Source of the DNA: Mesobacillus sp. S13
GTDB taxonomy: Bacteria > Bacillota > Bacilli > Bacillales > Cytobacillaceae
Direction of reading: 5' to 3'
Length of the DNA: 64,000 nt
Assembly (NCBI RefSeq): GCF_020422885.1
Contig: NZ_CP084622.1
Coordinates: forward strand, 2,933,001-2,997,000
Shown here: piece by piece, positions 9,101 through 60,790 of the stretch
How the letters are laid out: every line of letters starts with the position of its first letter
Numbering within the stretch: the first letter of the stretch is position 1
Notes under the pieces: generated by a model
What the model was told of the DNA's origin: nothing
The model's database searches: none
The model's input: only the letters and a program-made list of their open reading frames with translations
Translations under genes and position numbers: made by a program

Positions 9101-9235
9101 GTTCTTAGACATTTTGACTCTACAACGCCTTCAAAATATCCATTAAGTGCTGGTTCTTAGACATTTCGACTTCCCTCTGCATTCAAAATGTCCATTAAAC
9201 GCTGTTTGCATTTTGAAATGGCCATTATGTATATC
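9101..9235. repeat. 52-bp tandem repeat array A (about 2.5 units)
   Basis: Two clear units start at GTTCTTAGACATTT (9101) and again 52 bp later (9153), followed by a degenerate third from about 9204. Each unit has an inverted repeat: GACATTTTGA at 9108-9117 against TCAAAATATC at 9131-9140, and GACATTTCGA at 9160-9169 against TCAAAATGTC at 9183-9192. It fills the gap between deoD and yodJ and contains no reading frame. The period is identical to that of the arrays at 24813, 57317 and 60151. Confidence 0.75.
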
Positions 9236-9242
9236 CATATAA

Positions 9243-9269
9243 AAACCCTTTCCTCAAAGGAAAGGGTTT
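9243..9269 (-). terminator. deoD terminator
   Basis: A 12-bp stem AAACCCTTTCCT / AGGAAAGGGTTT followed by a T-rich tract on the minus strand, just beyond the deoD stop. Confidence 0.85.
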
Positions 9270-9277
9270 ACAAATAC

Positions 9278-9982
9278 TTACTCTTTGATTGCTGCTTCGA
9301 GTGCAACTTCGATCATGTCATTGAAAGTCGTTTGGCGCTCTTCTGCTGTTGTCTCTTCTCCAGTCAGGATATGGTCGCTGACTGTAAGAATCGAAAGGGC
9401 GTTGCGATCGTATTTAGCAGCCAGTGTATAGAGAGCTGTTGTTTCCATTTCGACAGCCAGAATCTGGTACTGTGCCCATTTTTCCAATTCTGCATTATCA
9501 TTATAGAACTGGTCTGCAGTGAATACGTTACCAACTTTAAGGTTCAAACCTTTTTCAAGCCCAGAATTATACGCTTTGTATAATAAGTCAAAGTTCGCTG
9601 TCGGAGCGTAATCTACTCCACCGAATGTAAGTCGGTTCATTTGAGAATCAGTTGAAGAAGTCATTGCCAAGATGACGTCACGGACTTTAACATCCTTCTG
9701 GATTGCACCGCATGTGCCTACGCGAATCAGGTTTTGGACGTTATAACTGTTCATCAATTCATTGATATAAATTGAAATGGACGGTACACCCATGCCTGTT
9801 CCCTGTACAGAAATTCTTTTTCCTTTGTATGTCCCAGTGTAGCCAAACATATTTCTAACTTCGTTATATAACTTTGCATCTTCAAGAAAAGTTTCAGCAA
9901 TGTATTTCGCCCTTAATGGATCTCCAGGAAGCAATACCGTTTCTGCAATTTCATTTTCTTTAGCACCAATATGTACACTCAT
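9278..9982 (-). CDS. deoD: purine nucleoside phosphorylase DeoD
   Basis: This 234-residue, hexameric-type (low-molecular-weight family) purine nucleoside phosphorylase starts [30 protein letters not shown]. It has the phosphate-binding GDPLRA and R-V-G-T-C-G motifs, [13 protein letters not shown] around the ribose-binding Glu, and catalytic Asp in LTVSDHI. It cleaves purine (deoxy)nucleosides with phosphate to free base and (deoxy)ribose-1-phosphate in salvage. It is a single gene with its own terminator. Position next to yodJ is conserved with B. subtilis. Confidence 0.96.
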
Positions 9983-10164
9983 TCAATAATCCTCCATCCT
10001 ATAGGTTGCTACCCCAAAACTATACCACAATATAGTTAAGCAGGAAAATCTTCAATCTCATGACATTTTTGTTAACGGGCATGCTAGAACTAGCTTTACC
10101 GAAGCTGAAACAAAAAATTCTTTCATATGCGAGTCGAAAAATCTGAAATAAAGGGGAATGACCT

Positions 10165-10296
10165 ATGGGTAAAAAACACCGCAACCGAATCAACTCACCT
10201 AAGAAAAACAATCACATTTCTCCTGAAGCAATCGTTGCTGAACAGGAAGCTCACGGCAAAGAATTTTCAGCTAATGGGAGAAAGAAACAGGGATAA
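10165..10296 (+). CDS. small basic protein, 43 aa
   Basis: The ATG at 10165 follows a good AAGGGGAA Shine-Dalgarno and opens a 43-residue frame (MGKKHRNRINSPKKNNH, then SPEAIVAEQEAHGKEFS, ending NGRKKQG). It is rich in Lys, Arg and Asn with no hydrophobic core and is likely unstructured. I do not recognise the family with confidence; its composition is like small spore-associated or nucleic-acid-binding peptides. It is transcribed opposite to deoD and spo0M and ends in a strong terminator (10302-10337). Confidence 0.7.
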   Translation: MGKKHRNRINSPKKNNHISPEAIVAEQEAHGKEFSANGRKKQG

Positions 10297-10301
10297 ATAA
10301 A

Positions 10302-10337
10302 AGACGATGAAGCAGCCATTGGCTTGCTTCATCGTCT
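10302..10337. terminator. bidirectional terminator
   Basis: A perfect 12-bp stem AGACGATGAAGC / GCTTCATCGTCT lies between the converging small gene (ends 10296) and spo0M (ends 10347). Confidence 0.85.
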
Positions 10338-10346
10338 ATATATTTT

Positions 10347-11117
10347 TTAACAGTAGCTTTCAATCGTGTTTTGAAGGTTTTGCTTTAATGACGGCAGGTC
10401 GGATGCATGGATATTCATCCTGACATATGTTTCATCCATACCCATCGCTTCCGACAAGAAGCCTCCAAGGCCCCGTGCCTTCCGGTCGACCTGCATTAAA
10501 ACCTCGACCTCGTTCTCACTAATTGGATAGAAAATCACTTCCAATTCATCGAGTCGTCCTCTAAATGGACCTGATGAAGGCACAAATTCAAACTCCTGGA
10601 TAAACGGCATGTTTCTGCGGAGATGTCTTGGCGCTTGTTCGCACTCAGCCTCCCTCAGTCGGAATCCAAGGTCGCTAACCGCGTTAAAAACCCCGTGCAT
10701 CAGCTGATTCGGCACTACGGTCAAGAAATCTTTATCGCTAGGGTCTACTGCATTTTTAATATCAAGCCCCGTTGATACCCAAACCTTCGTCCTGCCCATC
10801 GATAATGGCATTTCCATCGGGAGCCTGAAAGAGAAAGGAATTTCCTTTGTTTCATTCTCTTTGATGATGAATGACTGCGTTAGCTTGAATCGGTCAATTT
10901 GTGCTGTAGCAGTGTACTTTTTATCATCCGCTTCTTTTATATAAGTTGTATGTAAACTCAAATAGATGTCGTCGATATTCTGCTCAGTGTTTCCCCCACG
11001 AATCTCGACAATTCCGCGTACTTCTTCTCCAGGCATCACCCTGTCCTTTTCCAACTTCGTATCGACTTTAGCTGCACCTATGCCGACACTGGCAAAAACC
11101 TTATTAAAAAATGACAT
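10347..11117 (-). CDS. spo0M: sporulation-control protein Spo0M (arrestin-like)
   Basis: This 256-residue protein starts MSFFNKVFASVGIGAAKVDTKLEKD, characteristic of Spo0M. It has two arrestin-like beta-sandwich domains; conserved segments include VRGIVEIRGGNTEQNID, FSFRLP and GFRLREAECEQAPRH. Spo0M is cytoplasmic and affects entry into sporulation and cell division in Bacillus; its biochemical role is not settled. It is an independent gene with a shared terminator. The 400 bp upstream contains a degenerate repeat (see 11252). Confidence 0.93.
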   Translation of the reverse strand: MSFFNKVFASVGIGAAKVDTKLEKDRVMPGEEVRGIVEIRGGNTEQNIDDIYLSLHTTYIKEADDKKYTATAQIDRFKLTQSFIIKENETKEIPFSFRLPMEMPLSMGRTKVWVSTGLDIKNAVDPSDKDFLTVVPNQLMHGVFNAVSDLGFRLREAECEQAPRHLRRNMPFIQEFEFVPSSGPFRGRLDELEVIFYPISENEVEVLMQVDRKARGLGGFLSEAMGMDETYVRMNIHASDLPSLKQNLQNTIESYC

Positions 11118-11251
11118 ATCCCTTGCCTCCCTGATTATACAAAATTCTTTTTCATATAAATGTATACGTTTAAAAATTGAGAGAGTTTCAGCGTGACGGA
11201 ACTTTTTTTAAAAATTCATCGAATGAGGGTTTTGAGTAGGTATGAAAATTC

Positions 11252-11440
11252 ATAGGCGGAGTATTTCCTGCTATTGTATATAGAAGACGCTTTTGAAGCA
11301 GAAATAGACGGAGATATTCCGGTTAACTACTAAAAATAGGACAAAATTAATCGATTTGGATTTAATAACCGGAAAAACGACTTTTATTTTCATGAAATTA
11401 AGGGTGATTTTTAATTTAAGCGAAATTTTTCCGTTTATTT
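11252..11440. repeat. degenerate 52-bp-period repeat, array E
   Basis: The 400-bp gap between spo0M and yozD holds no gene. Two units, ATAGGCGGAGTATTTCC at 11252 and ATAGACGGAGATATTCCGG at 11304, are spaced exactly 52 bp. Two further, weaker CGGA-like cores lie near 11370 and 11420 (spacing 61 and 51). TTCCGGTTA (11317-11325) and TAACCGGAA (11366-11374) form an inverted repeat. The resemblance to the other arrays is in period and inverted-repeat design, not in base sequence. Confidence 0.45.
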
Positions 11441-11473
11441 TCAAATGCTGTTATAACAATGGTTAAATACAAA

Positions 11474-11501
11474 AAGACAGATTCTCATTAGAATCTGCCT
11501 T
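11474..11501 (-). terminator. yozD terminator
   Basis: Stem GGCAGATTC/GAATCTGTC followed by TTTTTG on the minus strand, 18 bp beyond the yozD stop. Confidence 0.8.
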
Positions 11502-11518
11502 AACCATGCATAACCTAC

Positions 11519-11692
11519 CTAGTCTATATCTTCTTCTTCATCGATGATACATTTTTCGATCAGATATTCAAAAGTGATATCTGCCATTTCTTCAAGTTCT
11601 TCCTCTGTGGGAACGTATCCCCTTTTTACAAGTTCATGAAAGAAAAATTCAGCAATCTCTTCTGTATCGATAATAACCTCAATCTCTTTCAC
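11519..11692 (-). CDS. yozD: YozD-family small acidic protein, 57 aa
   Basis: A GTG start at 11692 follows a GGGGGGCG Shine-Dalgarno. The 57-residue product reads MKEIEVIIDTEEIAEFFFHE and continues to an acidic tail ending DEEEDID. The length, opening sequence and ADITFEYLIEK segment match what I recall of B. subtilis YozD. It is soluble, acidic and probably helical; its function is unknown. It precedes the yodN/yozE/kamA region as in B. subtilis. Confidence 0.8.
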   Translation of the reverse strand: MKEIEVIIDTEEIAEFFFHELVKRGYVPTEEELEEMADITFEYLIEKCIIDEEEDID

Positions 11693-11828
11693 AGATTCGC
11701 CCCCCTTTATTCCAAATGTATGTGAAACACGCCTGTTTCATGCCGAGCTCAACCAATTTTCCGAAAATTGTTCTATTGCTTTTGGACAAGCATAGAATGG
11801 AATAAATTCAAATCGGGAGTGAACAGGT

Positions 11829-11999
11829 ATGGAGAGACTTGGTATCCTTGCAGAAATGTTTGTTGAGGACGTGAACAAGGAAAACAGTATGGTAGTTGAA
11901 TTGTTCGGCAATATCGTGAACTTCTTATTTAAAGCTGTTTTAGTGTTGGGAATTCCTTTTCTTGCTTATGTTCTTATTGAATTTGCAGGTTTATTTTAA
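11829..11999 (+). CDS. small single-pass membrane protein, 56 aa
   Basis: The ATG at 11829 has GGGAGTG upstream at 7-8 nt. The 56 residues begin MERLGILAEMFVEDVNKENS and end with a transmembrane helix (about 33-55, FKAVLVLGIPFLAYVLIEFAG). No family is recognised. Its TAA stop overlaps the stop codon of the convergent yodN gene, so the two 3' ends meet with no intergenic base and no terminator between them. Confidence 0.7.
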   Translation: MERLGILAEMFVEDVNKENSMVVELFGNIVNFLFKAVLVLGIPFLAYVLIEFAGLF

Positions 12000-12703
12000 A
12001 CATGGCTTTTGCCATCATTGTTAACGAGCGTTGACAGCTTACGAAGAATGACCCTCATGACATGCGCATATTCATCATCATTGAACCACTTATATAAAAT
12101 CCGGTAATCATTATAAATATCAAGCAGATTATCGATCGTCATCCTCTTTTGATGGATTTTCCGCAGTTCTTCTTTTTCACCTGCTCGCGGCTGTTGAGAC
12201 TTCTTATCAAGATTGACCGAAGGCTTCACTTCTTTATTGGCCGAAAACAAAAGACCCAACTTCTGGATGAACGTATCTGCACTGTCTGAATCCGCAACAA
12301 GTGTCAGTTCTTCCTCACCTGCTTCAAGCCATTCCCCATCTTTAATCCTGGATAGTTCATAAATGACATCCTCCCAGGCATCTTCTTTGTATCTCCAAAT
12401 TTCAGTGCGGAAGCCGACAACTTTAAATAAGTCTGAGCCATACCCTTTAACCTGAACTAAGTCCCCAAAGAAATATTTATATTCGATGTCGATTTGCTCC
12501 TTTTCAAGCAGCTTCCCATCGTATTCAGAGAGCATCTGCAAACTTGTTTCCAAATACAAGCCCTCGCTCTTATTTATCTCATATACATGAAGGCCGTCAA
12601 GCCATTTTACATCAGTCACTTTCCCCACAGTTCCATAAATAGTGATCACGACTGTATCACCGATGTTAAACTTAGGTTTCTTCCGTTTTTCCATATCCTC
12701 CAT
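11996..12703 (-). CDS. yodN: YodN-like protein, unknown function
   Basis: This 235-residue protein has an N-terminal part (about 10-150) that looks like two small beta-barrel (SH3/KOW-like) modules: FNIGDTVVITIYGTVGKVTDV and FFGDLVQVKGYGSDLFKVVGF. A disordered linker with QQPRAGEKEE and a C-terminal helical domain (MTIDNLLDIYNDYRILYKWF) follow. I assign it as YodN-like from domain order and position between yozD and yozE/kamA. The function is unknown; the barrels suggest binding rather than catalysis. A second ATG nine bases downstream (12694) is also possible. Confidence 0.65.
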   Translation of the reverse strand: MEDMEKRKKPKFNIGDTVVITIYGTVGKVTDVKWLDGLHVYEINKSEGLYLETSLQMLSEYDGKLLEKEQIDIEYKYFFGDLVQVKGYGSDLFKVVGFRTEIWRYKEDAWEDVIYELSRIKDGEWLEAGEEELTLVADSDSADTFIQKLGLLFSANKEVKPSVNLDKKSQQPRAGEKEELRKIHQKRMTIDNLLDIYNDYRILYKWFNDDEYAHVMRVILRKLSTLVNNDGKSHV

Positions 12704-12809
12704 CCTCTCAACGATGAGTCGTGAATTGTGATTACAACAGTATATGCAATTTTCTGAAAATCGCTACGCCTAGATATTAGATGGAAGCAGCTTTTATAAA
12801 AGGGAGTCT

Positions 12810-12869
12810 ATGATGGACTTTTTTAGGAACAATAACTCCTTGAAAAAAAATAAGACTCCCGCGGTTTGA
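12810..12869 (+). CDS. possible 19-aa peptide
   Basis: AAAGGGAG stands 4 nt before paired ATG codons at 12810 and 12813, giving MMDFFRNNNSLKKNKTPAV before TGA. The 3' end runs into the yozE terminator stem. Only the ribosome site supports it. It may be chance. Confidence 0.2.
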   Translation: MMDFFRNNNSLKKNKTPAV

Positions 12870-12885
12870 CCGCAAGAGCCTTATT
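12849..12885 (-). terminator. yozE terminator
   Basis: An imperfect 14-bp stem pairs AATAAGGCTC-GCGGT with ACCGC-GAGTCTTATT, followed by TTTTTTTTC on the minus strand. It overlaps the yozE stop codon. Confidence 0.8.
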
Positions 12886-13105
12886 AACTTTCTGCTATTA
12901 AATACTCCTCCCAAGCTTCGTCAAAAACAGCCATACTTTCCGGGTATTGACCGTTCAGTTCCAGATAGGAGCTAATCTCATCATAATCTTCGGAGTTTTT
13001 CGGGAATGAGAGATCATCGTATGCGGAATTTGCAAACCTGCTGATTGCATCCGTCGGTTTTGTGGTCCGGTACTTCATAAGAAAGTGGTAAAAGCTTTTA
13101 TACAT
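12884..13105 (-). CDS. yozE: YozE family protein (UPF0346, SAM-like fold)
   Basis: This 73-residue protein has the YozE signature: KSFYHFLMKYRTTKPTDAIS, FANSAYDDLSFPK and YDEISSYLELN, ending with a conserved FDEAWEEY helix. The family adopts a four-helix SAM-like fold and is restricted to Firmicutes; its function is unknown. It lies in the yozD-yodN-yozE order, as in B. subtilis. Confidence 0.92.
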   Translation of the reverse strand: MYKSFYHFLMKYRTTKPTDAISRFANSAYDDLSFPKNSEDYDEISSYLELNGQYPESMAVFDEAWEEYLIAES

Positions 13106-13190
13106 ATGAACGCCTGCCTATTGTTAAAATTAGTTTGTCCATACTATAACGGATTTGTTAAGTGTCCGTCCACTGTAATGCAAAAAACGA

Positions 13191-13216
13191 AGCACCTCCC
13201 GATTTGGTGAGGTGCT
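13191..13216 (-). terminator. terminator downstream of the 69-aa membrane protein gene
   Basis: A perfect 8-bp stem AGCACCTC/GAGGTGCT followed on the minus strand by a T-containing tract ahead of yozE. Confidence 0.75.
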
Positions 13217-13295
13217 CCCTTTTTGGATTAAAGAATAAATTTAGTGCTTAGATTAGGATTTAGCTACAGCGCTACTCAAGGCGCCTGCTCTTTTC

Positions 13296-13505
13296 TTACT
13301 GCCATCTTGCTGATTTCGCCATTTCCAGTAATGCCCATATGATATTGAACATTAAAATCGCCACGGTGATTGGCACGGCATGCAGCCAATTCATCCCATA
13401 TTTCTCAATAATCAGCCTAACATAATATCCGCAAAAGAATAAAACAACCATTGCTGCAACCAGCATGATTGATAATGCGATGGACATTTTCTCTCCCCAT
13501 TTCAT
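13296..13505 (-). CDS. small two-helix membrane protein, 69 aa
   Basis: The start MKWGEKMSIALS at 13505 has GGGGAG 9 nt upstream; an internal ATG (13487) has the same sequence too close. Two transmembrane helices are evident: residues 8-28 (ALSIMLVAAMVVLFFCGYYV) and 41-61 (VPITVAILMFNIIWALLEM). No family is recognised. It is encoded alone, terminated at 13191-13216, and lies downstream of the kamA-yokU operon. Confidence 0.7.
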   Translation of the reverse strand: MKWGEKMSIALSIMLVAAMVVLFFCGYYVRLIIEKYGMNWLHAVPITVAILMFNIIWALLEMAKSARWQ

Positions 13506-13617
13506 AAAAAATACTCCCCACTCTACTATAAAGAGGAGGGAGTAAATGGAGAAAAAGGAAGTATGAAATTTTTGTGAACAACACGCAGCAGCTGGTAATT
13601 TTTATCACACCAGGATA

Positions 13618-13899
13618 TCAGGATGAAAAGTCAAAGTAATTACGCTTCAACAACCTCGGCTGTGCCATCAATTCTTCAAAGGTGACCACTTTACCGAGTT
13701 TTTTTGTATCGATTAAAAACAATTGGTCTTCGATTTCCTTCGTGATCAATTCGGTCTGGTATGTCATATCGCAATCGAGACAATGGATGGCAGGGGTTTC
13801 ATTAATCTGAATTGCTTTCGTGCCGTCCGGAAGTTCCCAATAGACTTTGTCACTTACAGCTTTGGTATTTTCACTGCTGCACCACTCGCATTTTGACAT
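13618..13899 (-). CDS. yokU: YokU family / YgiT-type zinc-finger protein
   Basis: This 93-residue protein begins SKCEWCSSENTKAV and has HCLDCDMTYQTE about 30 residues later, giving two CxxC pairs for one zinc ion. The segment VYWELPDGTKAIQI is characteristic of YokU. The zinc finger resembles the MqsA/YgiT N-terminal domain but there is no DNA-binding HTH. Its ATG overlaps the kamA TGA (TGATG), so the two are translationally coupled. That suggests a role tied to lysine 2,3-aminomutase, for example maturation or regulation; this is inference. Confidence 0.85.
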   Translation of the reverse strand: MSKCEWCSSENTKAVSDKVYWELPDGTKAIQINETPAIHCLDCDMTYQTELITKEIEDQLFLIDTKKLGKVVTFEELMAQPRLLKRNYFDFSS

Positions 13900-15338
13900 C
13901 AGTCAACCCCCTTTGTCGTAGGAATAGCTCCCTGCCCATCAGCTGCTTCAGCTGTCGTCTTGTTCTGTTGCGCCATAAATTTCTTTTCCTTAAGCTCATC
14001 ACGTTTTTCACGCTTATCCTTCAGAGATGCATGCGCAGGATCTTCCTCATACTTTTCCCTGCGGTCAAGCCTTCCAAGACCTTCTGGAATCAGGTTAAAT
14101 TCACTGTCGTTCATAATCGCTGCGATTCCGGTGTTCGATTTTTTCTTCTCATAATCTGGGTACACTTGTTTGAAGTAGCCCTCCGCTTTTCCTGGAACAT
14201 AATTTTCCGGCTCAGGGTAAGAGGTGATCACACCTTCAAAATTGCGGAGAACGACTTTTTCCGGACTTTGGGAAATCAAGTAATTCGGCTGCAAGGAGAT
14301 TTTTCCGCCACCGCCAGGAGCGTCGACTACGAAAGTTGGGACAGCGTAGCCCGATGTATGTCCTCTTAAACCTTCAATAATCTCAAGTCCCTTTGTAACT
14401 GGAGCACGGAAATGACCTATGCCCTCTGACAAATCACATTGGTAAATATAATATGGGCGGACACGGATTTTTACGAGGTCATGCATAAGCTTTTTCATGA
14501 TCGGGACACTGTCATTGATTCCTGCCAGTATGACAGACTGGTTTCCGACTGGTACACCCGAGTTTGCAAGCATTTCACAGGCCCGTTTCGAGTCTTCCGT
14601 AATTTCGATTGATGTGTTGAAATGTGTATTCAGCCAGATTGGGTGGTATTTTTTAAGGATGGAACAAAGATTCTCTGTAATTCGCTGCGGGAAAACAACC
14701 GGTGCCCTCGTTCCAATTCTGATAATTTCAACATGGTCGATTTCTCTCAGGTTTTTTAAAATATATTCGAGTATATTATCGTTGATGAGGAGACCATCCC
14801 CGCCTGAAATCAATACATCGCGGACTTCAGGGGTCTCCCTGATGTAATTGATTGCAGCATCAAGCTGCTTCTTGGCAACCCCCATGCCGATTTGGCCGGA
14901 AAACCTTCTCCGAGTACAATAGCGGCAATACATCGAGCATTGGTTGGTCACAAGGAAAAGCACCCTGTCAGGATATCTATGAGTTAAGCCAGGTACTGGC
15001 GAATCCTCGTCTTCATGAAGCGGATCTTCAAGATCATATTTTGTTTTGTGAATTTCCTTTGAGATGGGGACTGACTGCATTCTGATCGGGCAGCGCGGAT
15101 CATCCGGATTCATTAATGAAGCATAGTAGGGTGTGATATTCAACGGAATGGTTTTCGTCGAGATCCTGACACCCTCTTCTTCTTCAGGCGTAAGATTAAT
15201 CACCTTCTTTAAATCGTCCAGTGTCCTGATTGTATTGGTAAGTTGCCATAGCCAATCATTCCATTGCTCCTCCGTAACATCCTTCCAAAGCTCAATATCC
15301 TTCCAGTGTCTTGAAGGCTTATATAAAGTCTGTTTCAT
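13899..15338 (-). CDS. kamA: L-lysine 2,3-aminomutase KamA
   Basis: This 479-residue radical-SAM, PLP-dependent enzyme converts L-lysine to L-beta-lysine (3,6-diaminohexanoate). The CxxxCxxC iron-sulfur motif is C134-C138-C141 (NQCSMYCRYC). The PLP-binding lysine is in the glycine-rich motif PGGGGK (K346). SGGDGLL and GTRAPVVFPQR are also typical. The C-terminal tail (about 420-479) is rich in charged residues and extends beyond the clostridial enzyme. It has its own perfect -24/-12 promoter and a GGGGGGAA Shine-Dalgarno, and is translationally coupled to yokU. In B. thuringiensis the kam locus is reported to depend on sigma-54 and KamR, which this arrangement matches. Confidence 0.96.
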   Translation of the reverse strand: MKQTLYKPSRHWKDIELWKDVTEEQWNDWLWQLTNTIRTLDDLKKVINLTPEEEEGVRISTKTIPLNITPYYASLMNPDDPRCPIRMQSVPISKEIHKTKYDLEDPLHEDEDSPVPGLTHRYPDRVLFLVTNQCSMYCRYCTRRRFSGQIGMGVAKKQLDAAINYIRETPEVRDVLISGGDGLLINDNILEYILKNLREIDHVEIIRIGTRAPVVFPQRITENLCSILKKYHPIWLNTHFNTSIEITEDSKRACEMLANSGVPVGNQSVILAGINDSVPIMKKLMHDLVKIRVRPYYIYQCDLSEGIGHFRAPVTKGLEIIEGLRGHTSGYAVPTFVVDAPGGGGKISLQPNYLISQSPEKVVLRNFEGVITSYPEPENYVPGKAEGYFKQVYPDYEKKKSNTGIAAIMNDSEFNLIPEGLGRLDRREKYEEDPAHASLKDKREKRDELKEKKFMAQQNKTTAEAADGQGAIPTTKGVD

Positions 15339-24705: not shown

Positions 24706-24812
24706 AAATGAATAGGGGAATCTTTCTTGAAGATGTAAAAAATAAGTGGTACTTGCCTGAGGTTATTGATAGGGATGGATTTGACAACTCTTCGTAGTTT
24801 CGGAATGCCTAC

Positions 24813-25529
24813 ACTTCGGACAATTTCTGCTCTTCCGCTGGCTGTTTTGTCTGAACCTGGGGTGACTTCGGACAAAATCTACTCTTCCAACGGCTGTTTT
24901 GTCCGAACCTGGGATGACTTCGGACAATTTCTGCTCTTCCGCTGGCTGTTTTGTCTGAACCTGGGATGACTTCAGACAATTTCTGCTCTTTCACCGGCTG
25001 TTTTGTCTGAACCTGGGGTGACTTCGGACAATTTCCGCACTTTCACCGGCTGTTTTGTCCGAACCTGGGATGACTTCAGACAAAATCTACTCTTCCGCTG
25101 GCTGTTTTGTCTGAACCTGGGGTGACTTCGGACAATTTCTGCTCTTCCTTCAGCTGTTTTGTCCGAACCTGGGATGACTTCGGACAAAATCTACTCTTCC
25201 GCAGGCTGTTTTGTCTGAACCTGGGGTGACTTCAGACAAAATCTACTCTTCCACCAGCTGTTTTGTCCGAACCTGCGTTGACTTCGGACAATTTCTGCTC
25301 TTCCTTCAGCTGTTTTGTCCGAACCCGGGGTGACTTCAGACAAAATCTACTCTTCCGCTGGCTGTTTTGTCCGAACCTGGGTGACTTCGGAAAATTTTTG
25401 CTCTTCCTTCAGCTGTTTTGTCTGAACCTGGGATGACTTCGGATAAATTCTGTTCTTCCAACCGCTGTTTGTCCGAACCTGCACCTACTTCAGACTAATC
25501 TGCTTTTCTAAAAGCTGTTTTGTCCGAAA
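24813..25529. repeat. 52-bp tandem repeat array B (13 full units plus a partial one)
   Basis: Units start at 24813, 24865, 24917, 24969, 25021, 25073, 25125, 25177, 25229, 25281, 25333, 25384, 25436 and 25487. All are 52 bp except two of 51. Each begins ACTTCGGACAA and ends TTTTGTCCGAACCTGGGGTG or a close variant. Inverted arms TTCGGACAA and TTGTCCGAA are 23 nt apart within a unit, and 11 nt apart across the unit boundary. In units 4 and 6 both arms have changed together (TTCAGACAA/TTGTCTGAA). It fills the gap between the LD-carboxypeptidase gene and yodT. 52 is not a multiple of three, so it is not coding; open frames there are artefacts. Confidence 0.92.
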
Positions 25530-25546
25530 TATTTCGAGCAAAAAAA

Positions 25547-25566
25547 AGACACCCATAAAAGGTGCC
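25547..25566 (-). terminator. terminator of the LD-carboxypeptidase gene
   Basis: An imperfect hairpin GGCACC/GGGTGTC followed by TTTTTTTT on the minus strand, between the stop at 25583 and the repeat array. Confidence 0.7.
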
Positions 25567-25582
25567 TTAAAAAGTGAAAGAA

Positions 25583-26563
25583 CTATTCTTTTTGTTCAAT
25601 AAAGATCTCGGTTTGGCCAGCTGCTGCTTTTACAGTTGCGGTTGCTCCGATTGGCAATGTCGCAAATGGCTGGACATGGCCAAAGTTGACGTTTGCGATG
25701 ATGGGTATGTTGCGCAGCTCTTCCTTACTGGAAATAATCTTCCTTAGTGCCTCTTCTGTAATATTGGAGTTTTTTTGGAAGCGGCCAATCAATAGCGCTT
25801 TTATCGAGTCAGCATCCGGCAGATGCAGCAGCGACTGCAGATCCCTGTCGAAGCTCCTTGAATGGCTTTCTTCGTCATCCTCAATGAACAGGATGCTATC
25901 TTTCAGTGAAGGCATAAACTCTGTTCCCTGAAGCAGGTTCATCGTACAAAGGTTTCCGCCAATCAGTTTTCCCTCGGCTTCTCCTTCCTGGAGGATTAGA
26001 AAGCCGTTTTGTTCATGGAATGTCCGATTTTCCTGGTCAAGATACCAGGCATCGTCGGACCATGTTGCAGATGGAACGACTTCATAAGGAGCATCATTCG
26101 TGACTGCCTGCAAAAACGATTCCATCGTATATTCAAGTCCATGCTTCACGCCGAAGCTTGAAAAATGTGGACCTGAGTAGGTTACGAGACCTGTTTTTTG
26201 ATAGATCGCCAGCTGAAGCGCGGTAATGTCACTGTATCCACATAGAATTTTAGGATTAGCAGCAATCAGGTCAAAGTCTATATACTTTAGCAGCTGATTG
26301 GAATTATATCCGCCAATTGCCGTTAAGATTCCTTTTACATTTGGATCGGCAAAAGCATCATGCAAGTCCTCGATCCTTTCAGCAATGGAAGAGCTGAAGA
26401 ACTCGTCGTGTGCCTCCGCATTCTTCCCAAATGTCACATTGAAACCCAGCTTGGTCAACCTCTCAACAGACAAATCAACCTGGGCCCCCTTCAATATGAC
26501 CATGCTGGTCGAAGGCGCAATCACTCTTATTTCGTCCCCTGGCACTAATTTAGGTGCAAACAT
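25583..26563 (-). CDS. S66-family LD-carboxypeptidase / MccF-like protein
   Basis: This 326-residue serine peptidase is of family S66. The nucleophile Ser is in the CGYSDITAL elbow (about residue 117), with IGGNLCTMNLLQGTEF and the late His in VNFGHVQPFATLPIG completing the Ser-Glu-His set. Family members cleave the L,D-bond of muropeptides in cell-wall recycling (LdcA, YkfA) or inactivate microcin C (MccF). The opening FAPKLVPGDEIRVIAPS is shared by both. No other muropeptide-recycling genes are adjacent, so the substrate is open. Single gene with its own terminator. Confidence 0.88.
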   Translation of the reverse strand: MFAPKLVPGDEIRVIAPSTSMVILKGAQVDLSVERLTKLGFNVTFGKNAEAHDEFFSSSIAERIEDLHDAFADPNVKGILTAIGGYNSNQLLKYIDFDLIAANPKILCGYSDITALQLAIYQKTGLVTYSGPHFSSFGVKHGLEYTMESFLQAVTNDAPYEVVPSATWSDDAWYLDQENRTFHEQNGFLILQEGEAEGKLIGGNLCTMNLLQGTEFMPSLKDSILFIEDDEESHSRSFDRDLQSLLHLPDADSIKALLIGRFQKNSNITEEALRKIISSKEELRNIPIIANVNFGHVQPFATLPIGATATVKAAAGQTEIFIEQKE

Positions 26564-52633: not shown

Positions 52634-52642
52634 GATGAGCAG

Positions 52643-54160: not shown

Positions 54161-55873
54161 CTAGGAATGGACAGGCTCTTCGACAGTTTTCACATCGAAC
54201 AGATCGGTTACAGCGCCTTTTGAGGAACAAGATACAAGTCTGGCGTATTTAGCCAGTGCCCCTCTCTTAGGAAGTGGCGGCGGAGTCCAGTTTTGCCTGC
54301 GAACAGCAAGTTCCTCCTCACTTAAAGCAACCGAGATCAACTTCTGTTCACTATCGACCGTAATCAGGTCTCCATCTTTTATTAATGCAATCGGCCCGCC
54401 AACCTGTGCTTCAGGGGCAATATGGCCAATAACCAGTCCGTGACTTCCCCCGGAGAATCTGCCATCTGTAAGCAATGCAACACTTTCTCCCAGGCCTTTT
54501 CCGACAAGGATTGCTGATAAACTCAGCATTTCAGGCATGCCCGGACCACCTTTTGGACCTTCATACCGGATGACCAATACGTCTCCAGCGACAATTTCAT
54601 CCGACATAACTGCTTTTGAAGCTGATTCTTCATCATCAAAAACCTTAGCCGGGCCAGTCATGTTTTTCACCTTCAAGCCTGATACTTTTGCTACAGCACC
54701 ATCTGGGGCAAGGTTCCCTTTTAAAACAACGAGCGGACCATCTTTTCTAAATGGTTCGGCTGCAGGGCGAATGACTTTTTGGTCAGGTTTTAAGTCAGGA
54801 AAGTCCTTAAGATTCTCTTCGAGTGTTCTTCCCGTAACAGTGAGGCAATCACCGTGCAGGAGTCCTTCTTTTAATAAAAGTTTCATGACGGCAGGAACCC
54901 CTCCAGCATTGAAAAGGTCTTGCATGACATATTTGCCGCTTGGCTTCAAGTCAGCAAGATGTGGTACTTTTTCCTGGATTTTATTAAAATCGTCCAGCGT
55001 CAGGTCGACTTCTGCAGCGTGCGCGATAGCCATTAAATGCAGGACGGCATTCGTGGATCCCCCGAGAGCCATTACGACTGTAATCGCATTTTCAAAAGCT
55101 TCCTTCGTTAAAATCTGTCTTGGTCGAATGTCTTGCTCTAGCATCTGATAGACCACTTCTCCAGCTTTATAGCAATCCTCCCGCTTTTCATCCGTTTCTG
55201 CTGGATGTGATGAGCTTCCCGGCAGGCTCATACCAAGGGCCTCGATGGCGCTGGCCATTGTATTAGCTGTGTACATCCCTCCACAGGAACCAGATCCTGG
55301 ACAAGCTTGGCATTCAATCTTATGAAGTTGTTCATCACCAATCGCACCCTTGTTATACTGGCCGACACCTTCGAACGCTGACACAATGTCAATGTCCTTT
55401 CCATCGAGCTTTCCTGGTTTAATCGTGCCTCCATAAACAAAAACAGAAGGAAGATCCATCCTGGCAATCGCCATCATGCAGCCTGGCATATTTTTATCAC
55501 AGCCGCCGATCGCGACGAAACCATCAAGGCTCTCTCCCTGGACCACCGTTTCGATCGAGTCGGCAATTAGGTCTCGACTAGGAAGCGAATAGCGCATGCC
55601 ATCTGTCCCCATCGAAATTCCATCCGATACAGTGATCGTGTTAAAGATCATCGGCGCTCCACCGGCTGCCCTTGCACCCTCTTTCGCTTTCACCGCTAGC
55701 TTATCAATATGTATATTACAAGGAGTCACCTCGCTCCAGGTACTCGCAATTCCAATCATAGGCTTCCTGAAATCATCGTCACTGAAACCAACCGCCCGAA
55801 GCATGGCTCTGTTCGGGGCCTTTCTGGCATCATCACTAAATACATGGCTCTTGATTCTTAAATCTTTTTCCAT
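54161..55873 (-). CDS. ilvD: dihydroxy-acid dehydratase IlvD
   Basis: This 570-residue enzyme has the iron-sulfur ligands in [10 protein letters not shown] and [16 protein letters not shown], with conserved GRFSGGSHG near the C-terminus. It dehydrates the dihydroxy acids in valine and isoleucine synthesis. The start at 55873 has CGGGAGGGA upstream. It stands alone here, apart from the ilv-leu operon. The 210 bp upstream are A/T-rich; no convincing T-box or CodY site was identified. Confidence 0.96.
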
Positions 55874-56038
55874 TGATTTGTCCCTCCCGATTTTTTATTC
55901 ACTACATTACCTCTTTTTAGGGATGATTGCAATAATTATCTAAATATTTTAATTATTAAAAATAAGTAAGCGGATACATTATTCATTTTCATACAGAAAA
56001 TCATCCGAGTAAGCAAACCAAGGAACTTTTTCTCTAAA

Positions 56039-56082
56039 AAAAAGACACCCTGGACGTTCCGGAATGTCCAAAGTGTCTTGAT
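56039..56082. terminator. ypgR terminator
   Basis: A stem AAGACAC-GGAC/GTCC-GTGTCTT with A and T tracts on both sides, between ypgR and the ilvD start region. Confidence 0.85.
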
Positions 56083-56086
56083 TTTT

Positions 56087-57217
56087 TTATTGTTTTCTCG
56101 CTTCCGTCATTTGCTTCCAGACGGAGCCTTTTGCTTCCTCGCCATGCTCGATACGGGCAATCGCCAGTTTCACCTGCATGCTTACTTCGAATTCTGGATC
56201 ATCTTCTGCAGCCTTCAACGCAGGAAGTGCCCCTTCATCCCCTGCTTCATAAAGGAACATTGCCGCTCTCCAGCGGACAAGCTTGCTTGGATCCTTTAAT
56301 GCTTCCATCATTTCGTCCATTGCTTCCGTAAAACCAAGATCCGATAAACAATCACCCGCTGTCCTGCGAACCGTAACCGTTTTGTCGTTCAGAGCTTTGT
56401 ACAGCAATGGCAATACGTTTTTGTCCTCTATCATTCCCAAGTAGACAGTTGCCAGCCGGCGTATGGATGCTTTCTCATCATTCAATGCTTTTTCCAGCAC
56501 TGGCAGATCTTCTAAAGTTGGATCTTCCATTTGCTCAAGAAGCTGGTATCTAATCCGCCAATCCGGATTTTCCAAGTCAGCTTCTGTGATTCTAATTTTC
56601 TTCTTTGCTGCTTTAATTTGAGCTTCTTGTCCTGGATTTTTAGCCAGCTTTACGAGCTCCTCCAGTCTTTCAGGAGGATATGCCGCTAAAAGCTCTTCTA
56701 CAACATCATTTCCTACCTGATCGAATTCTCCGTACCGGACACCGAGTTCTTTCCACCGGCGGACCATTACCACATTATCGTCGGGAGTCTGGACCTCACC
56801 TACTTTTTTAACGAAGGATTCTGGCAGACCAAAGCGCTTTTCTTCTGTTCCGTCGGTCAATTTCACTTGCATCGGTATCCCCTTATAGACCTGGACAAGA
56901 ACCTTTATTTCTCCAAAATGCTCATTGATCTCAGGTACGGCGTTCCCTGATTCCTCTGCATCTTCTCCGAATGCCTTCCTCACTTCAGGAAGGATTACTT
57001 TCCAGTCATACTTTGCATTTCTTTCAACTGCCAGGAAATCTGCAACATGGTAAACACCTTTTACCCCTTCAATATCCAATATGTTCAAAATGACTTCCGG
57101 AGCCCCGGCCGCCGAGTCCTTTTTATAATTATTGCTCTTGCCCATAGGAAGTTCTTGATCCAGATTGATCTTCATCGTATTCGGGCTTGGCGTTGGTTCA
57201 ATTGATACAATTTTCAC
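56087..57217 (-). CDS. ypgR: YpgR: Nfu-like N-domain plus HEAT repeats (conserved virulence factor C type)
   Basis: This 376-residue protein has an N-terminal Nfu/NifU-N domain (about 1-90, SIEPTPSPNTMKINLDQELP), a middle domain and C-terminal HEAT-like repeats: YQLLEQMEDPTLEDLPVLEKALNDEKASIRRLATVYLG, then three more ending VSMQVKLAIARIEHG. Staphylococcal homologs are called CvfC. The Nfu domain suggests contact with iron-sulfur metabolism but lacks the CxxC of true scaffolds; exact role unknown. In the B. subtilis ypgR-ypgQ position next to ilvD. Confidence 0.9.
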   Translation of the reverse strand: MKIVSIEPTPSPNTMKINLDQELPMGKSNNYKKDSAAGAPEVILNILDIEGVKGVYHVADFLAVERNAKYDWKVILPEVRKAFGEDAEESGNAVPEINEHFGEIKVLVQVYKGIPMQVKLTDGTEEKRFGLPESFVKKVGEVQTPDDNVVMVRRWKELGVRYGEFDQVGNDVVEELLAAYPPERLEELVKLAKNPGQEAQIKAAKKKIRITEADLENPDWRIRYQLLEQMEDPTLEDLPVLEKALNDEKASIRRLATVYLGMIEDKNVLPLLYKALNDKTVTVRRTAGDCLSDLGFTEAMDEMMEALKDPSKLVRWRAAMFLYEAGDEGALPALKAAEDDPEFEVSMQVKLAIARIEHGEEAKGSVWKQMTEARKQ

Positions 57218-57316
57218 ATTCCCACCCCTTTATTTTTTTCAGGAATGAAGCCATTTTAACATAATGAGTGATAGATAGCATTTCGAAGCCCTTCAGACCA
57301 AAGCAGCCCTTTGTTC

Positions 57317-57490
57317 TGACAGCTTTTTCTCTTTTTTCTCTGTACGTGGCAGAAGTTGCTCGGTCTTTTGACAGCTTTGCTTCTTTTCTCGCCAAACCTG
57401 TCTTATGTTGGGCCTTCTTTTGACAGCTTTTCCTTTTTTCTTACCAATCCTGTCAGAAGTTGCAATACTAAGTCAGCTCTGCTGTTAAGC
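57317..57490. repeat. 52-bp tandem repeat array D (about 3.3 units)
   Basis: TGACAGCTTT recurs at 57317, 57369 and 57421, a spacing of exactly 52 bp, with a partial at 57473. The units are degenerate, pyrimidine-rich (long CTTTTTTCTC tracts) and contain inverted arms of TTCTGACAG / CTGTCAGAA type. It occupies the gap between the ABC-F gene and ypgR. Stop codons and loss of phase rule out coding. Confidence 0.75.
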
Positions 57491-57498
57491 GAAAAAAA

Positions 57499-57525
57499 AA
57501 TAAGACCTGGTTTCCCAGGCCTTAT
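57499..57525 (-). terminator. ABC-F gene terminator
   Basis: Stem AATAAGGCCTGG/CCAGGTCTTATT followed by TTTTTTTTTC on the minus strand, overlapping the stop codon at 57522. Confidence 0.88.
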
Positions 57526-59399
57526 TCGTTTTCGGCAAGCTCAGATAAATAGCTCCATCTTTCAATTAGATACTCTAACTGCTCATTCAGCTCATTTTCT
57601 TCATTCATCAAAGCCTGACCCTTTTCAAAATCACTTCCGATCTTGGCCATTTCTGACTGCACTTCTTCCAGGCGTTCTTCTGTACCTGCAATCTTATCTT
57701 CGATTTCTGCCCATTCTTTCTGCTCCTTGAAGGAAAGCTTCTTTTTCTTAGGCTTTTCGGTCTGTTCTACTCTCTCCTTCTTCGGCATTGAAGGAGCAGC
57801 TTCTGGTTTCGGTCTTTTTTCGAGGTATTCTGTGTAGTTGCCATAATGCAAATCTGTGTGGCCATTCCCTTCCAGAACTAGAAGCAAATCGACAACCTTA
57901 TCAAGGAAGTACCGGTCGTGGGATACGGTAATGACGACACCCGGGAAGTCTTCCAGGTAATCTTCCAAAACAGTCAATGTTTGTGTGTCCAGATCATTCG
58001 TCGGCTCATCCAGCAGCAGGACGTTTGGTTCTTCCATTAATAGCTTCAACAAGTAAAGTCTGCGTTTCTCGCCACCGGAAAGCTTCCTGATTGGCGTTCC
58101 ATGGGAATATGGCTGAAACAGGAACCTCTCGAGCATTTGTGCAGCCGATATTGTCTTGCCGTCAGTGGTATGGACGATCTCCGCAGTCTCTTTCAAGTAT
58201 TCAATTACCCGCTTATTTTCATCCATATCTTCATTTTCTTGGGTATAATAAGCAATCTTAACAGTTTGTCCGGTGACGATTTCACCGTCATCGAGCCTGA
58301 TCCTGCCTGCGAGAATATTTAACAAAGTCGATTTACCTGTCCCGTTACGGCCGATGATTCCCAGTCTGTCTCCAGGTTTTACGAGAAGGTTAAAGTGATC
58401 CAAAATCACCTTGTCCTCATAATTTTTTGATGCTTCTTTCAGTTCTAGCACCTGCTTACCCAGGCGACTGCCACTCAGAGAAATATCAAGTTTTTCAGAA
58501 GACTTCACATTTGCCACTTCTTCATCCAACTTGTCAAACCGTTGAATACGGGCCTTCTGTTTAGTTGTTCTTGCTTTAGCTCCGCGCCTGATCCACTCGA
58601 GTTCCTGCCTGAACAAATTCTTCTTCTTTTCAAATGTTGCGGCTTCGTTTTCCTCTCTGATTGCCTTGGCTTCAAGGAAGCTTGCATAGTTGCCTTTATA
58701 GCTATATAGATTTCCGCCATCAAGCTCAAAAATCCTGTTTGTCACCCGATCAAGGAAATAACGGTCATGGGTGACGAGCAAAAGTGAACCTGAATATCTT
58801 GAAAGATAATCTTCAAGCCATTTTACCGTCTCATAATCGAGATGGTTCGTCGGCTCATCAAGAATCAGCAAATCCGGTGATTCAATCAATACTTGAGCAA
58901 GGGCTACTCGTTTCTTCTGCCCGCCTGATAGTTCACCCATCTTCTTGGAGAAGTCAGAAATTCCAAGCTGCATGAGAATGGATTTCGCAGCAGTATTGGC
59001 ATCCCATCCATCTGAACTATCCATCTTCCTCTGCAGCTCATAAAACCTCTCCTGAAGTCCAGGGTCATCTGGTCTTTCTCCCAATTCAGAAAGAATGATC
59101 TCATAATCTCGCATTAATTTTAAGATAGGGGCTTCTCCGCTAAAAACCTGGTCAAGAACCGTTTTGTCATGTTCCATTTCAGGCTGTTGAGATAAAAACG
59201 AGATTTTATAATCTTTCGCAAAGATCAGATCACCCGAATCCGGCTGGTCAATGCCCGCTACAATCCTGAGTAAAGATGACTTCCCTGTTCCATTCACACC
59301 AATCAAGCCGACTCTTTCACGTTCGCCAATCGTAAAGGTAATCTCATTGAAAAGCTCTTTTTCTCCATATGTCTTTGTCACGTTTTCAATCGTGATCAT
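57522..59399 (-). CDS. ABC-F family ATPase, YfmR/Uup-like
   Basis: This 625-residue protein has two ABC domains without membrane parts: Walker A GVNGTGKSSLL and GRNGTGKSTLL, signatures LSGGQKKRVAL and LSGGEKRRLYL, Walker B LLILDEPTNHLD and VLLLDEPTNDLD. The arm/linker lies between (about 240-310) and the C-terminus is coiled-coil (SFKEQKEWAEIEDKIAGTEERLEEVQ). ABC-F proteins act on ribosomes in translation stress; the coiled-coil tail is of Uup/YfmR type. The ATG at 59399 starts 2 bp after the ypgQ stop (AAGG site 7 nt upstream), so both belong to one operon. Confidence 0.93.
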   Translation of the reverse strand: MITIENVTKTYGEKELFNEITFTIGERERVGLIGVNGTGKSSLLRIVAGIDQPDSGDLIFAKDYKISFLSQQPEMEHDKTVLDQVFSGEAPILKLMRDYEIILSELGERPDDPGLQERFYELQRKMDSSDGWDANTAAKSILMQLGISDFSKKMGELSGGQKKRVALAQVLIESPDLLILDEPTNHLDYETVKWLEDYLSRYSGSLLLVTHDRYFLDRVTNRIFELDGGNLYSYKGNYASFLEAKAIREENEAATFEKKKNLFRQELEWIRRGAKARTTKQKARIQRFDKLDEEVANVKSSEKLDISLSGSRLGKQVLELKEASKNYEDKVILDHFNLLVKPGDRLGIIGRNGTGKSTLLNILAGRIRLDDGEIVTGQTVKIAYYTQENEDMDENKRVIEYLKETAEIVHTTDGKTISAAQMLERFLFQPYSHGTPIRKLSGGEKRRLYLLKLLMEEPNVLLLDEPTNDLDTQTLTVLEDYLEDFPGVVITVSHDRYFLDKVVDLLLVLEGNGHTDLHYGNYTEYLEKRPKPEAAPSMPKKERVEQTEKPKKKKLSFKEQKEWAEIEDKIAGTEERLEEVQSEMAKIGSDFEKGQALMNEENELNEQLEYLIERWSYLSELAENE

Positions 59400-59401
59400 T
59401 T

Positions 59402-60046
59402 TCATGCCTTACCATTCCATTCACTGTAAAATTGATCAAGGAAATTTTCCATGAATCTATGTCTTTCCTCTGCCAGTTGTCTTGCATGCTCAGTATTCAT
59501 TTTATCTTTTAGCTTCAAAAGCTTTTCGTAAAAGTGATTGACTGAAGAACTGTCGCCTTGCCTGTATTCTTCCAGTGTCATCTGATCCCTGACATTCAGC
59601 TCAGGCTCATAGATCGGGTGGCCTTTTTTACCGCCAAATGCAAAAGTCCTTGCAACCCCTATGGCACCAAGGGCATCAAGGCGGTCAGCATCCTGGACAA
59701 TCTCCGCTTCAATGCTATCAAGCTCAATCACCCTGCCGCCCTTATAAGAAACTGTTTCGATACAGTTCTTGATTTTGGAAACGAGTTCGCTCTCGATTTG
59801 TATGCTATGCAAAAATGAATCCAGTTTCGCCCAACCTGCTTCTTCTGATTCATTCAATTTATCATCCGGTATATCATGAAGCAAGGCAGCCATTTCGATA
59901 ATGAACCAGTCACCCTTCTTCTCCTTGCTCCATATAAGTCGCGCATTTTTCCTTACCCTGTCAATATGATGCCAGTCATGCCCCGAAGAATCCTTTCCTA
60001 GCTCAGCTTTAACAAATTCCTCTGCTATTACGATTATATCTTCCAT
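59402..60046 (-). CDS. ypgQ: HD-domain phosphohydrolase YpgQ
   Basis: This 214-residue protein has the metal-binding H...HD...D pattern: GHDWHHIDRVRKNA, AALLHDIPDDKLN and IVQDADRLDALGAIGVAR. YpgQ-type enzymes hydrolyse (d)NTPs to nucleosides and triphosphate or pyrophosphate in vitro, usually with Mn2+. The start at 60046 (MEDIIVIAEEF) has GTGGGGG 5 nt upstream. It is followed immediately by an ABC-F gene. The 52-bp array C lies immediately upstream. Confidence 0.92.
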   Translation of the reverse strand: MEDIIVIAEEFVKAELGKDSSGHDWHHIDRVRKNARLIWSKEKKGDWFIIEMAALLHDIPDDKLNESEEAGWAKLDSFLHSIQIESELVSKIKNCIETVSYKGGRVIELDSIEAEIVQDADRLDALGAIGVARTFAFGGKKGHPIYEPELNVRDQMTLEEYRQGDSSSVNHFYEKLLKLKDKMNTEHARQLAEERHRFMENFLDQFYSEWNGKA

Positions 60047-60150
60047 GTGAACCCCCACTTTCCTACCGAACTCATTTTACCATAGAAACTGATTTGAGAT
60101 AGCGGGTTATATACTTGGTATGGCATTTCGCTTTCCCTTAAGTGAGTATG

Positions 60151-60790
60151 TATAGTGCCAGACTTTCTTCTGGACACTTTCCTAGGGGTCAGCTTCCTGT
60201 TTGTCCGATAGAGCCCTTCTATCGGACACTTTCTCAAGATCCAGCTTCCTGTTTGACCGATAGAGCCTTTCTATCGGACATTTTCTCAAGATCCAGCTTC
60301 CTGTTTGACCGATAGAGCCTTTCTATCGGACACTTTCTCATACTTCAGCTTCCTGTTTGACCGATAGAGCCTTTCTATCGGACATCTTCTCACGGTTCAG
60401 CTCCTTGTTTGGCCGATAGAGCCTTTCTATCGGACACTTTCTCATGCTTCAGCTTCCTGTTTGGCCGATAGAGCCTTTCTATCGGACACTTTCTCAAAAT
60501 CCAGCTTTTTGTTTGGCCGATAGAGCCCTTCTATCGGACACTTTCTCATGCTTCAGCTTCCTGTTTGACCGATAGAGCCTTTCTATCGGACACTTTCTCA
60601 TGCTTCAGCTTCCTGTTTGGCCGATAGAGCCTTTCTATCGGACACTTTCTCAAAATCCAGCTCCTTGTTTGGCCTATAGAGCCTTTCTTTCGGACACTTT
60701 CTCAAAATCCAGCTTCGTGTTTGACCGTTAGAGCCTTTCTATCGGACACTTTCTCATGCTTCAGCTTCCTGTTTGGTCTTTAGAGCACGC
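60151..60790. repeat. 52-bp tandem repeat array C (12 units plus partial)
   Basis: Units start at 60151, 60203, 60255, 60307, 60359, 60411, 60463, 60515, 60567, 60619, 60671 and 60723, in perfect 52-bp register, with a partial at 60775. The typical unit holds the hairpin CCGATAGA-GCCTT-TCTATCGG followed by ACACTTTCTC and AGCTTCCTGTTT. The first unit replaces the stem by CCAGA/TCTGG, keeping pairing but not sequence. It fills the gap between the DegV gene and ypgQ. It is non-coding (52 is not a multiple of 3). Confidence 0.93.

Follow-up and report, generated by a model that had tools for sequence, protein, structure and literature searches.

Tandem arrays in the intergenic DNA of a Mesobacillus genome repeat units of differing sequence at a constant spacing of 52 bp, and we find that most of these units align on a single frame, GACA-N25-TGTC-N19, when read on the leading strand. 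The arrays came to attention in one window, by which we mean the whole 64-kb stretch at positions 2,933,001-2,997,000 of the single-contig 4.81-Mb genome. They share this geometry, their arms pair, their A/T blocks keep phase with the helix, their polarity tracks replication, they are placed in gaps between genes, and they turn over by whole units. By analogy with the gyrase-binding bacterial interspersed mosaic elements (BIME-2) of Escherichia coli, we tentatively favor the reading that the arrays may be scaffolds of double-stranded DNA, sited where genes end, for wrapping or bending.

The 52-bp phenomenon is itself already published, and its kind is known. In the portions of Subirana and Messeguer 2021 (PMC8161180) used here, repeats of 51-53 nt make up 1886 of the 4029 tandem repeats in 176 Bacillus genomes; their size is constant while their sequence varies, a genome holds several families, and they are non-coding, different in length between strains, and of unknown function. 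B. selenatarsenatis (recorded as Mesobacillus) has 49 of its 82 repeats in this size class and shares repeats with B. boroniphilus and B. subterraneus. Short signals are conserved within species, the reverse of a signal often being present in that repeat too, and Table 2 gives a signal containing GACA or TGTC in three of the four 52-nt species. These portions state that sequence is not conserved between species and that the length of 52 has no explanation, and a term search found the words terminator, hairpin, palindrom and intergenic absent from the main text. PMC6749651 is an earlier survey of such repeats, likewise used here in part. Our literature search found no account of a core common to these repeats, of their polarity or of helix phasing in them. 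The literature leaves a puzzle: repeats of many Bacillus species, though unrelated to one another, are all 52 nt long.

Four arrays lie in the window:

Array A, 9101..9232, minus strand: two clear 52-bp units and part of a third, F5 type, reading TTTAATGGACATTTTGA ... TCAAAATGTCTAAGAA along the leading (minus) strand; consensus core off by one base.
Array B, 24795..25528, minus strand: about 14 units of 52 bp, F1 type, TTCGGACAAAA ... TTTTGTCCGAA; 10 exact doubled-core matches.
Array D, 57308..57463, minus strand: three 52-bp units, F4 type, GACAGGTTT ... AAAGCTGTC; 1 exact doubled-core match.
Array C, 60151..60790, minus strand: 12 units of 52 bp, F2 type, TCTATCGGCCA ... TGTCCGATAGA; in most units the left core is GGCCA/GGTCA, differing from the consensus core by one base.

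Tandem Repeats Finder reported period 52 at 24813-25481 in array B (12.9 copies; 13 by the periodicity scan of the genome sample described below) and at 60163-60776 in array C (11.8 copies). By autocorrelation in 104-base frames the best period is 52 at array A (58/104 matches near 9084) and at array D (73/104 near 57307); period-52 matches rise to 95/104 in B and 98/104 in C, where multiples of 52 score slightly above 52 itself (98 and 102). Five first-order Markov shuffles of the window set the noise level: across all periods, their highest score was 50-52. An initial annotation of this DNA had counted five arrays of period 52; the fifth, near 11252, has a best period of 32 with 49/104 matches, within the shuffle noise and with no 52 signal. 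The same annotation had the register nearly always held in the two long arrays, as it is: 11/11 unit-to-unit steps are 52 in array C and 11/12 in array B, with one of 51. That each array repeats a different unit proved half right, since one core geometry is common to all four (exact in B and D, with the consensus one base off in A and C), and array B as a DNA query matched 55 pieces genome-wide (itself included, several per array) at 65-100% identity. Array B was also matched in 18 of 21 genomes of the genus.

To place these arrays in their genome we took a sample of 60 evenly spaced 20-kb stretches plus the window, 1.264 Mb of 4.806 Mb (26%, with 9 kb masked as N), and scanned every period from 15 to 300, counting clusters with N runs set aside. 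There were 106 periodic clusters, 44 with a main period of 52, 11 with 53 and none with 51. These 55 arrays in 26% of the genome suggest some 200 arrays of 52-53 bp in the whole.

The consensus units of the 44 arrays of period 52 include 30 with exact GACA-N25-TGTC-N19 and four one base off (A and C among them); seven others fit CCC-N25-GGTA or a close form and three fit none of these. Among the 11 arrays of period 53, four fit TACC-N28-GGTA or a close form and seven fit no tried pattern. The geometry is strict. In the sample, all 145 tandem occurrences of GACA-Nk-TGTC at period 52 have k=25, and periods 50, 51, 53 and 54 together add a single case, at 53; tandem TGTC-N19-GACA pairs number 139 at period 52, five at 53 and one at 51. 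In 40 stretches of other genomes the count is 204 at k=25 and at most 2 elsewhere, although these stretches were picked by k=25. GACA, which the initial annotation had named as a core of the units, is thus a true one, whereas its idea of a shared period without shared sequence is not supported, given a geometry common to arrays and genera.

One exact pattern finds GACA-class arrays in any genome, regardless of sequence family. The doubled exact core has 511 matches in this genome, and is found in 20 of 21 Mesobacillus genomes (range 0-656 matches; the genome with none is G011), in 138 of 193 family genomes covering 17 of 25 genera, and in 45 of 249 genomes of the order, with no match to a reversed-pattern control in either the family or the order. 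A phylum-wide draw of 398 genomes had it in two, both Mesobacillus, against one for the control. Doubled TACC-N28-GGTA-N17 occurs in 14 of the 21 genus genomes (control 0). Since the exact core is present in only 4 of 27 published consensus repeats, the GACA core is the mark of one class and not of the whole phenomenon.

Two side observations concern these counts. Draft contigs often begin inside arrays (contigs C12, C25, C35, C37, C54 and C59 of G016; G001:C200; G008:C72), so that arrays seem to break assemblies and the counts for draft genomes are probably too low. At G819:C1:675725-676431 (in L270) and 1967358-1968222, cores lie within higher-order repeats, spaced 311 and 260 bp respectively.

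Each unit does contain an inverted repeat, as the initial annotation had proposed; it is the N19 side of the frame, 10 bp long, and its six variable pairs covary between arrays. The element can accordingly be written TGTC-n6-N7-n6'-GACA, a 27-bp dyad in which n6 is free but complementary. In 82 exact-core arrays from own, sister and other-genus stretches, positions 5-10 on the 19-base side are paired in 66-82% of arrays, against 30-43% expected from composition; pairing on the 25-base side stays near the compositional expectation. Taking one copy per array gives 353/492 paired cells; shuffling whole arms leaves 169 ± 12 (at most 214 in 5000 shuffles), and sliding the partner leaves 77-154. In our own genome only, 104/168 cells are paired against 60 ± 7 (maximum 85). 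The arms covary between arrays, so it is pairing that is kept and not a fixed sequence. Between copies, substitutions run at 5.8% in the arms, 14.6% in the long loop and 15.9% in the spacer. Compensatory double changes within arrays are few (5 against 388 single changes), and support for pairing therefore rests on the comparison between arrays.

Such pairing is what would be expected if the arrays were selfish or neutral hairpin minisatellites, in which a 27-nt hairpin with TGTC/GACA feet is exposed on the lagging-strand template and causes slippage or is copied by a foot-reading enzyme, its units spreading and contracting with no benefit to the host. We regard this explanation as doubtful but nearly as likely as the scaffold, since genomes of a single genus have anything from 0 to 656 doubled cores. 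The between-array covariation speaks for it, and the scarcity of compensatory changes within arrays against it. It would also draw on an excess of G.T over A.C on the leading-sense strand (171 against 86 with the ten-pair stem and more genomes; 29 against 15 arrays, with 29 ties), an excess we grade as weak because both the stem definition and the data had changed from a count with loosely defined arms in our own genome (139 against 153). An IS200/RAYT-type transposase (PF01797) is not needed: it is present in 18 of the 21 genus genomes, and the three without a match are rich in doubled cores (543 in G016 and 68 in G019, both drafts, and 544 in G020, in one contig), for which reason we rejected a mobile-element origin via a Y1 transposase. 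A source in viral contigs was rejected too, pattern matches there being at chance level (9 against 7 for the control).

The feet, arms and spacing bear as well on a suggestion found in the portions of PMC8161180 used here, that a dedicated sequence-specific dimeric protein polymerises on the arrays and organises the nucleoid. Invariant TGTC/GACA feet, conserved arms and constant spacing would suit such a protein. The outer left arms of the 28 own-sample arrays, however, are of 14 different kinds, more than a single sequence reader would accommodate outside the 4-bp feet, and the 53-bp and CCC/GGTA classes do without those feet, just as G011 does without the doubled core. We consider this protein improbable.

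What the hairpin explanation leaves unaccounted for is the phasing of A/T blocks in linkers of unrelated sequence. In 73 GACA-core arrays, the fifth harmonic of AA/TT/AT (10.4 bp) is the strongest of ten, with z +19 against linker shuffles; the next strongest is k=7, at z 7.6. An A/T-trinucleotide measure shows 10.4 bp separately in 28 own arrays (z 12) and in 35 other-genus arrays (z 13). Eleven own 53-bp arrays, with another core, have their harmonic peak at 10.6 bp (z 6.3), and among the published repeats, most of them without the core, k=5 is strongest in 14 of 27, with a combined z of 11.5 over the 24 of 51-53 nt. Changes from W to S affect 6.1% of copies at phased A/T peaks against 14.5% in troughs. 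The initial annotation's view that spacing is under selection at five helical turns is supported by these harmonics, and the phasing points to bendability or wrapping of duplex DNA. Strong static curvature was considered and set aside, the prediction, which depends on the wedge model, being only modestly raised in GACA arrays; wrapping, and not strong bending, would therefore be needed.

We next consider orientation. The terminus was placed near 2.52 Mb, from a change in the sign of GC skew between stretches at 2.48 and 2.56 Mb. Of the 55 own arrays, 50 have their purine-rich strand as the leading one; by type of gap, this holds in 26/28 codirectional with the fork, 7/9 head-on, 12/13 convergent, 4/4 divergent and 1/1 at an edge. 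Array-free gaps lean the same way but less (codirectional 179/243, head-on 19/29, convergent 29/53, divergent 86/125), so the head-on cases alone are not beyond background. In pairs of arrays of the same family, which are not independent, a shared leading-strand orientation fits better in 37 of 38, and in 20 of the 21 that span both replichores. The same polarity is seen in other genomes: where local GC skew is clear, 40 of 45 arrays conform (10/10 in sister species, 30/35 elsewhere), as do 45 of 55 without the skew filter. Array polarity mostly follows replication, and clearly not transcription, which would also suit the hairpin minisatellites. One polarity exception is contained in stretch L071 (own genome 4080001-4100000), where GC skew is near zero (0.002) within a skewed arm; the region is perhaps a recent inversion or island.

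The polarity matters most for a reading at the RNA level, of which the initial annotation's RNA stems processed by RNases are one form: transcribed hairpin arrays would act as 3' stabilisers, sponges, small RNAs or terminators. Five array-C units fold better than shuffles on both strands (z -3.45 and -3.54), centroids of these folds show local hairpins at the dyads, stem pairing is conserved between arrays, and repeats of B. coagulans are transcribed in published RNA-seq according to the part of PMC8625621 used here. Set against this, orientation tracks replication and not the neighboring gene (the seven of nine head-on cases), which weakens the stem/RNase reading even as hairpin pairing stands, and a DNA-helix period has no role in RNA. 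Rfam searches of the window plus seven loci (8 sources, 88,888 bases) gave 0 matches, and of six other-genus stretches a single match, to a T-box that lies clear of the array, so that none of the arrays searched scored above the gathering threshold. The 8 nt that follow the hairpin hold more T when read lagging-sense (mean 3.3 against 1.9), yet most arrays are not terminator-like: at least 5 T in the following 8 nt are found in 3 of 73 arrays leading-sense and 16 lagging-sense, and at least 4 T in 12 and 34. Arrays as terminators were rejected on this ground, and an RNA-level role in general seems to us decidedly unlikely.

Placement is the remaining property. Among the sampled arrays, 54 of 55 lie within called gaps, and the last one, found where a stretch ends, does not overlap any called gene. 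Arrays A, B, C and D are each flanked by minus-strand genes, and a location between co-directional genes, as first proposed, is right for these four; it does not extend to the genome, where the 54 gaps are 37 codirectional, 13 convergent and 4 divergent. Relative to all gaps of at least 150 bp, arrays occupy 13/66 convergent, 37/309 codirectional and 4/129 divergent (convergent against divergent, Fisher p=0.0002), and this order is the one expected for positive supercoiling. In 29 of 37 codirectional gaps the array is closer to the preceding stop (median 78 bp) than to the next start (median 142 bp). In the window, each array is preceded in the direction of transcription by an intrinsic-terminator-like hairpin:

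9237..9267, minus strand: hairpin of upstream gene 9278-9982, just before array A, dG -14.1 kcal/mol.
25537..25568, minus strand: hairpin of upstream gene 25583-26563, just before array B, dG -11.5 kcal/mol.
57489..57527, minus strand: hairpin of upstream gene 57522-59405, just before array D, dG -18.9 kcal/mol.
60834..60884, minus strand: hairpin of upstream gene 60870-61787 (presumably DegV-like), just before array C, dG -18.3 kcal/mol.

In codirectional gaps, 27 of 37 arrays are separated from the stop by a terminator; of array-free gaps of at least 250 bp, 76 of 126 have one within 100 nt of the stop. Arrays thus come after terminators, but the presence of a terminator does not clearly set their gaps apart.

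Across four sister genomes the array families stay at their loci while unit numbers change. In the five genomes the B locus has about 14, 14, 22, 6 and 3 units, the D locus 3, about 18, about 72, 1 and a remnant, and the C locus 12, 7, 5, 2 and 0. Orthologous arrays therefore do change by 52-bp units, as had been anticipated, and this swing in copy number, from a remnant to about 72 at D and from 0 to 12 at C, together with the lack of any doubled core in G011, would also suit selfish hairpins. At the C gap M. selenatarsenatis retains just one unit, and in more distant species the gap holds either different families or no array; the degV downstream gaps of G011 and G017 have no array (L258, L259 and L261, which contained different DNA, were left out of this comparison). 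A clean empty site with target duplication was sought in G005, which lacks array C, and was rejected: the join has only a 3-base shared end, ATA, and the other three sisters keep arrays there, making deletion as likely as insertion. The neighboring gene 59402-60058 has orthologues in M. boroniphilus (86%) and M. selenatarsenatis (87%) among its closest. The D-locus array of about 72 units (L171:159-3887, in G003) is 3.7 kb long, against three units in the window; its cores are often altered, with no exact doubled-core match.

Returning to the proposed wrapping scaffold, each unit spans five helical turns with, on average, five in-phase A/T blocks, so that the same bending or wrapping face recurs along the array; the dyads, one every 52 bp, are separated by 25-bp, mostly purine-rich linkers. 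A putative DNA-wrapping protein would dock on this lattice and deal with DNA architecture or torsional stress where genes end. By analogy with BIME-2 in E. coli, DNA gyrase would be the likeliest candidate, with an HU-like protein (HBsu) as an alternative. Arrays gain and lose whole units, presumably through recombination or slippage, and only in-phase units would persist. The parts of PMC6379681 used here describe an E. coli gyrase motif with phased 10-bp G/C variation, and gyrase enrichment downstream of transcribed units and in BIME-2. Phased variation of about 10 bp between A/T and G/C, a feature of gyrase sites, is present in our arrays, if mixed in the own 52-bp arrays without the GACA core.

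A number of results weigh against this proposal. First, as to phasing, in the ten own 52-bp arrays without the GACA core, k=6 (z 5.1) outranks k=5 (z 3.2); in 13 of the 27 published repeats a harmonic other than k=5 is the strongest; the mid-linker A/T peak, considered by itself, is not significantly conserved (27 against 18 arrays, p=0.097); and predicted static curvature is hardly raised in the 53-bp arrays and only modestly in the GACA arrays. Second, covariation of arm base pairs goes beyond what wrapping requires. Third, rarity in divergent gaps could simply reflect promoters, and the depletion is weak in the 500-1500 bp gap class (3/16 against 22/49). Genes before arrays do not differ by a weak codon-usage proxy for expression (0.208 against 0.212, p=0.87). 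Fourth, in the same parts of PMC6379681, E. coli gyrase lies mostly 2-5 kb beyond terminators, and it binds some BIME-2 independently of transcription, its signal there rising with transcription blocked; placement at gene ends need not, then, mean torsion relief. Finally, counts of 0 to 656 within the genus show the arrays to be dispensable.

We think it unlikely, though worth stating, that Bacillales carry a Gram-positive counterpart of BIME-2, which would consist of up to a few hundred lattices forming a docking track behind genes for gyrase or another wrapper, with five phased bending blocks per 52-bp unit and a preferred polarity to the fork. If true, the constant 52 (53 in another class) would be a helix-phasing rule. 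Core geometry, a phase rule that extends to repeats lacking the core, and fork-linked polarity together make the puzzle of constant length testable.

Other periods in the sample were a possible objection to the special status of 52, and mostly they favored it. A stricter list holds 25 arrays of other periods, 15 of them outside called genes, against 55 of 52-53; the 15 are mainly of 20/21 and 40-42, near two and four helical turns, and coding arrays are those of 33, 60 and 63 and two of three of 36. Intergenic arrays of 20 or 40 bp with a common TATAGCGA (L034:4902-5097, L068:14770-14958, L071:9449-9672, L078:12139-12318, L065:217-445) span two or four turns and are apparently the 20-21 nt class of Subirana and Messeguer. 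A separate family of 41-bp intergenic units, TATATCRGCGGATTT-like and near four turns, is at L031:16145-16389, L037:9577-9904, L072:13556-13784 and L032:4640-4835, and probably at L072:4806-5036. At L027:3051-3274 are 36-bp units, a multiple of three yet outside called genes.

Several known systems invite comparison. CRISPR arrays likewise have palindromic repeats at constant spacing, but here the intervening sequence is itself repeated (14.6% substitutions), with no unique spacers, and the estimate is 200 arrays per genome. Intrinsic terminators have a hairpin followed by a T run, which most of the 73 arrays lack. With the 52-nt Bacillus repeats in the portions of PMC8161180 used here the match is close: both hold a constant length of 51-53 nt over differing families (here 44 of 52 and 11 of 53 among 106), both are non-coding (54/55 sampled arrays in called gaps), and both differ in length between related strains, as at the B, C and D loci. 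Of at least four repeats, the minimum in that work, arrays B (12.9-14) and C (about 12) have enough, while A (2-3) and D (3) fall short. Beyond that account, the arrays here share a core, contain a covarying 10-bp inverted repeat, follow replication in their polarity and are phased at 10.4 bp. Strong gyrase sites, with their wrapping motif, offer a possible parallel in phased 10-bp variation of G/C against A/T; the arrays differ in being periodic over many units, and are known here from sequence alone.

Repetitive extragenic palindromic (REP) elements and BIME-2 have variable copy number and are rare in divergent gaps. Their preference for unidirectional and convergent over divergent gaps is shared here (37/309, 13/66 and 4/129). 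In E. coli and relatives they are likewise intergenic palindromes in arrays near gene ends with a tetranucleotide tag, and gyrase binds some BIME-2 palindromes, according to the parts of PMC6379681 and PMC3733652 used here. Their tag, however, is GTAG or CGTC at one palindrome end (PMC3733652, same part), where our arrays have TGTC/GACA on both feet, and the Y1 (RAYT) transposase associated with them is not needed here (3/21 genomes without PF01797, with 68-544 doubled cores). With the tag wrong and the transposase not needed, we limit the claim to arrays that may work like REP/BIME, from which they are further distinguished by a strict 52-bp unit.

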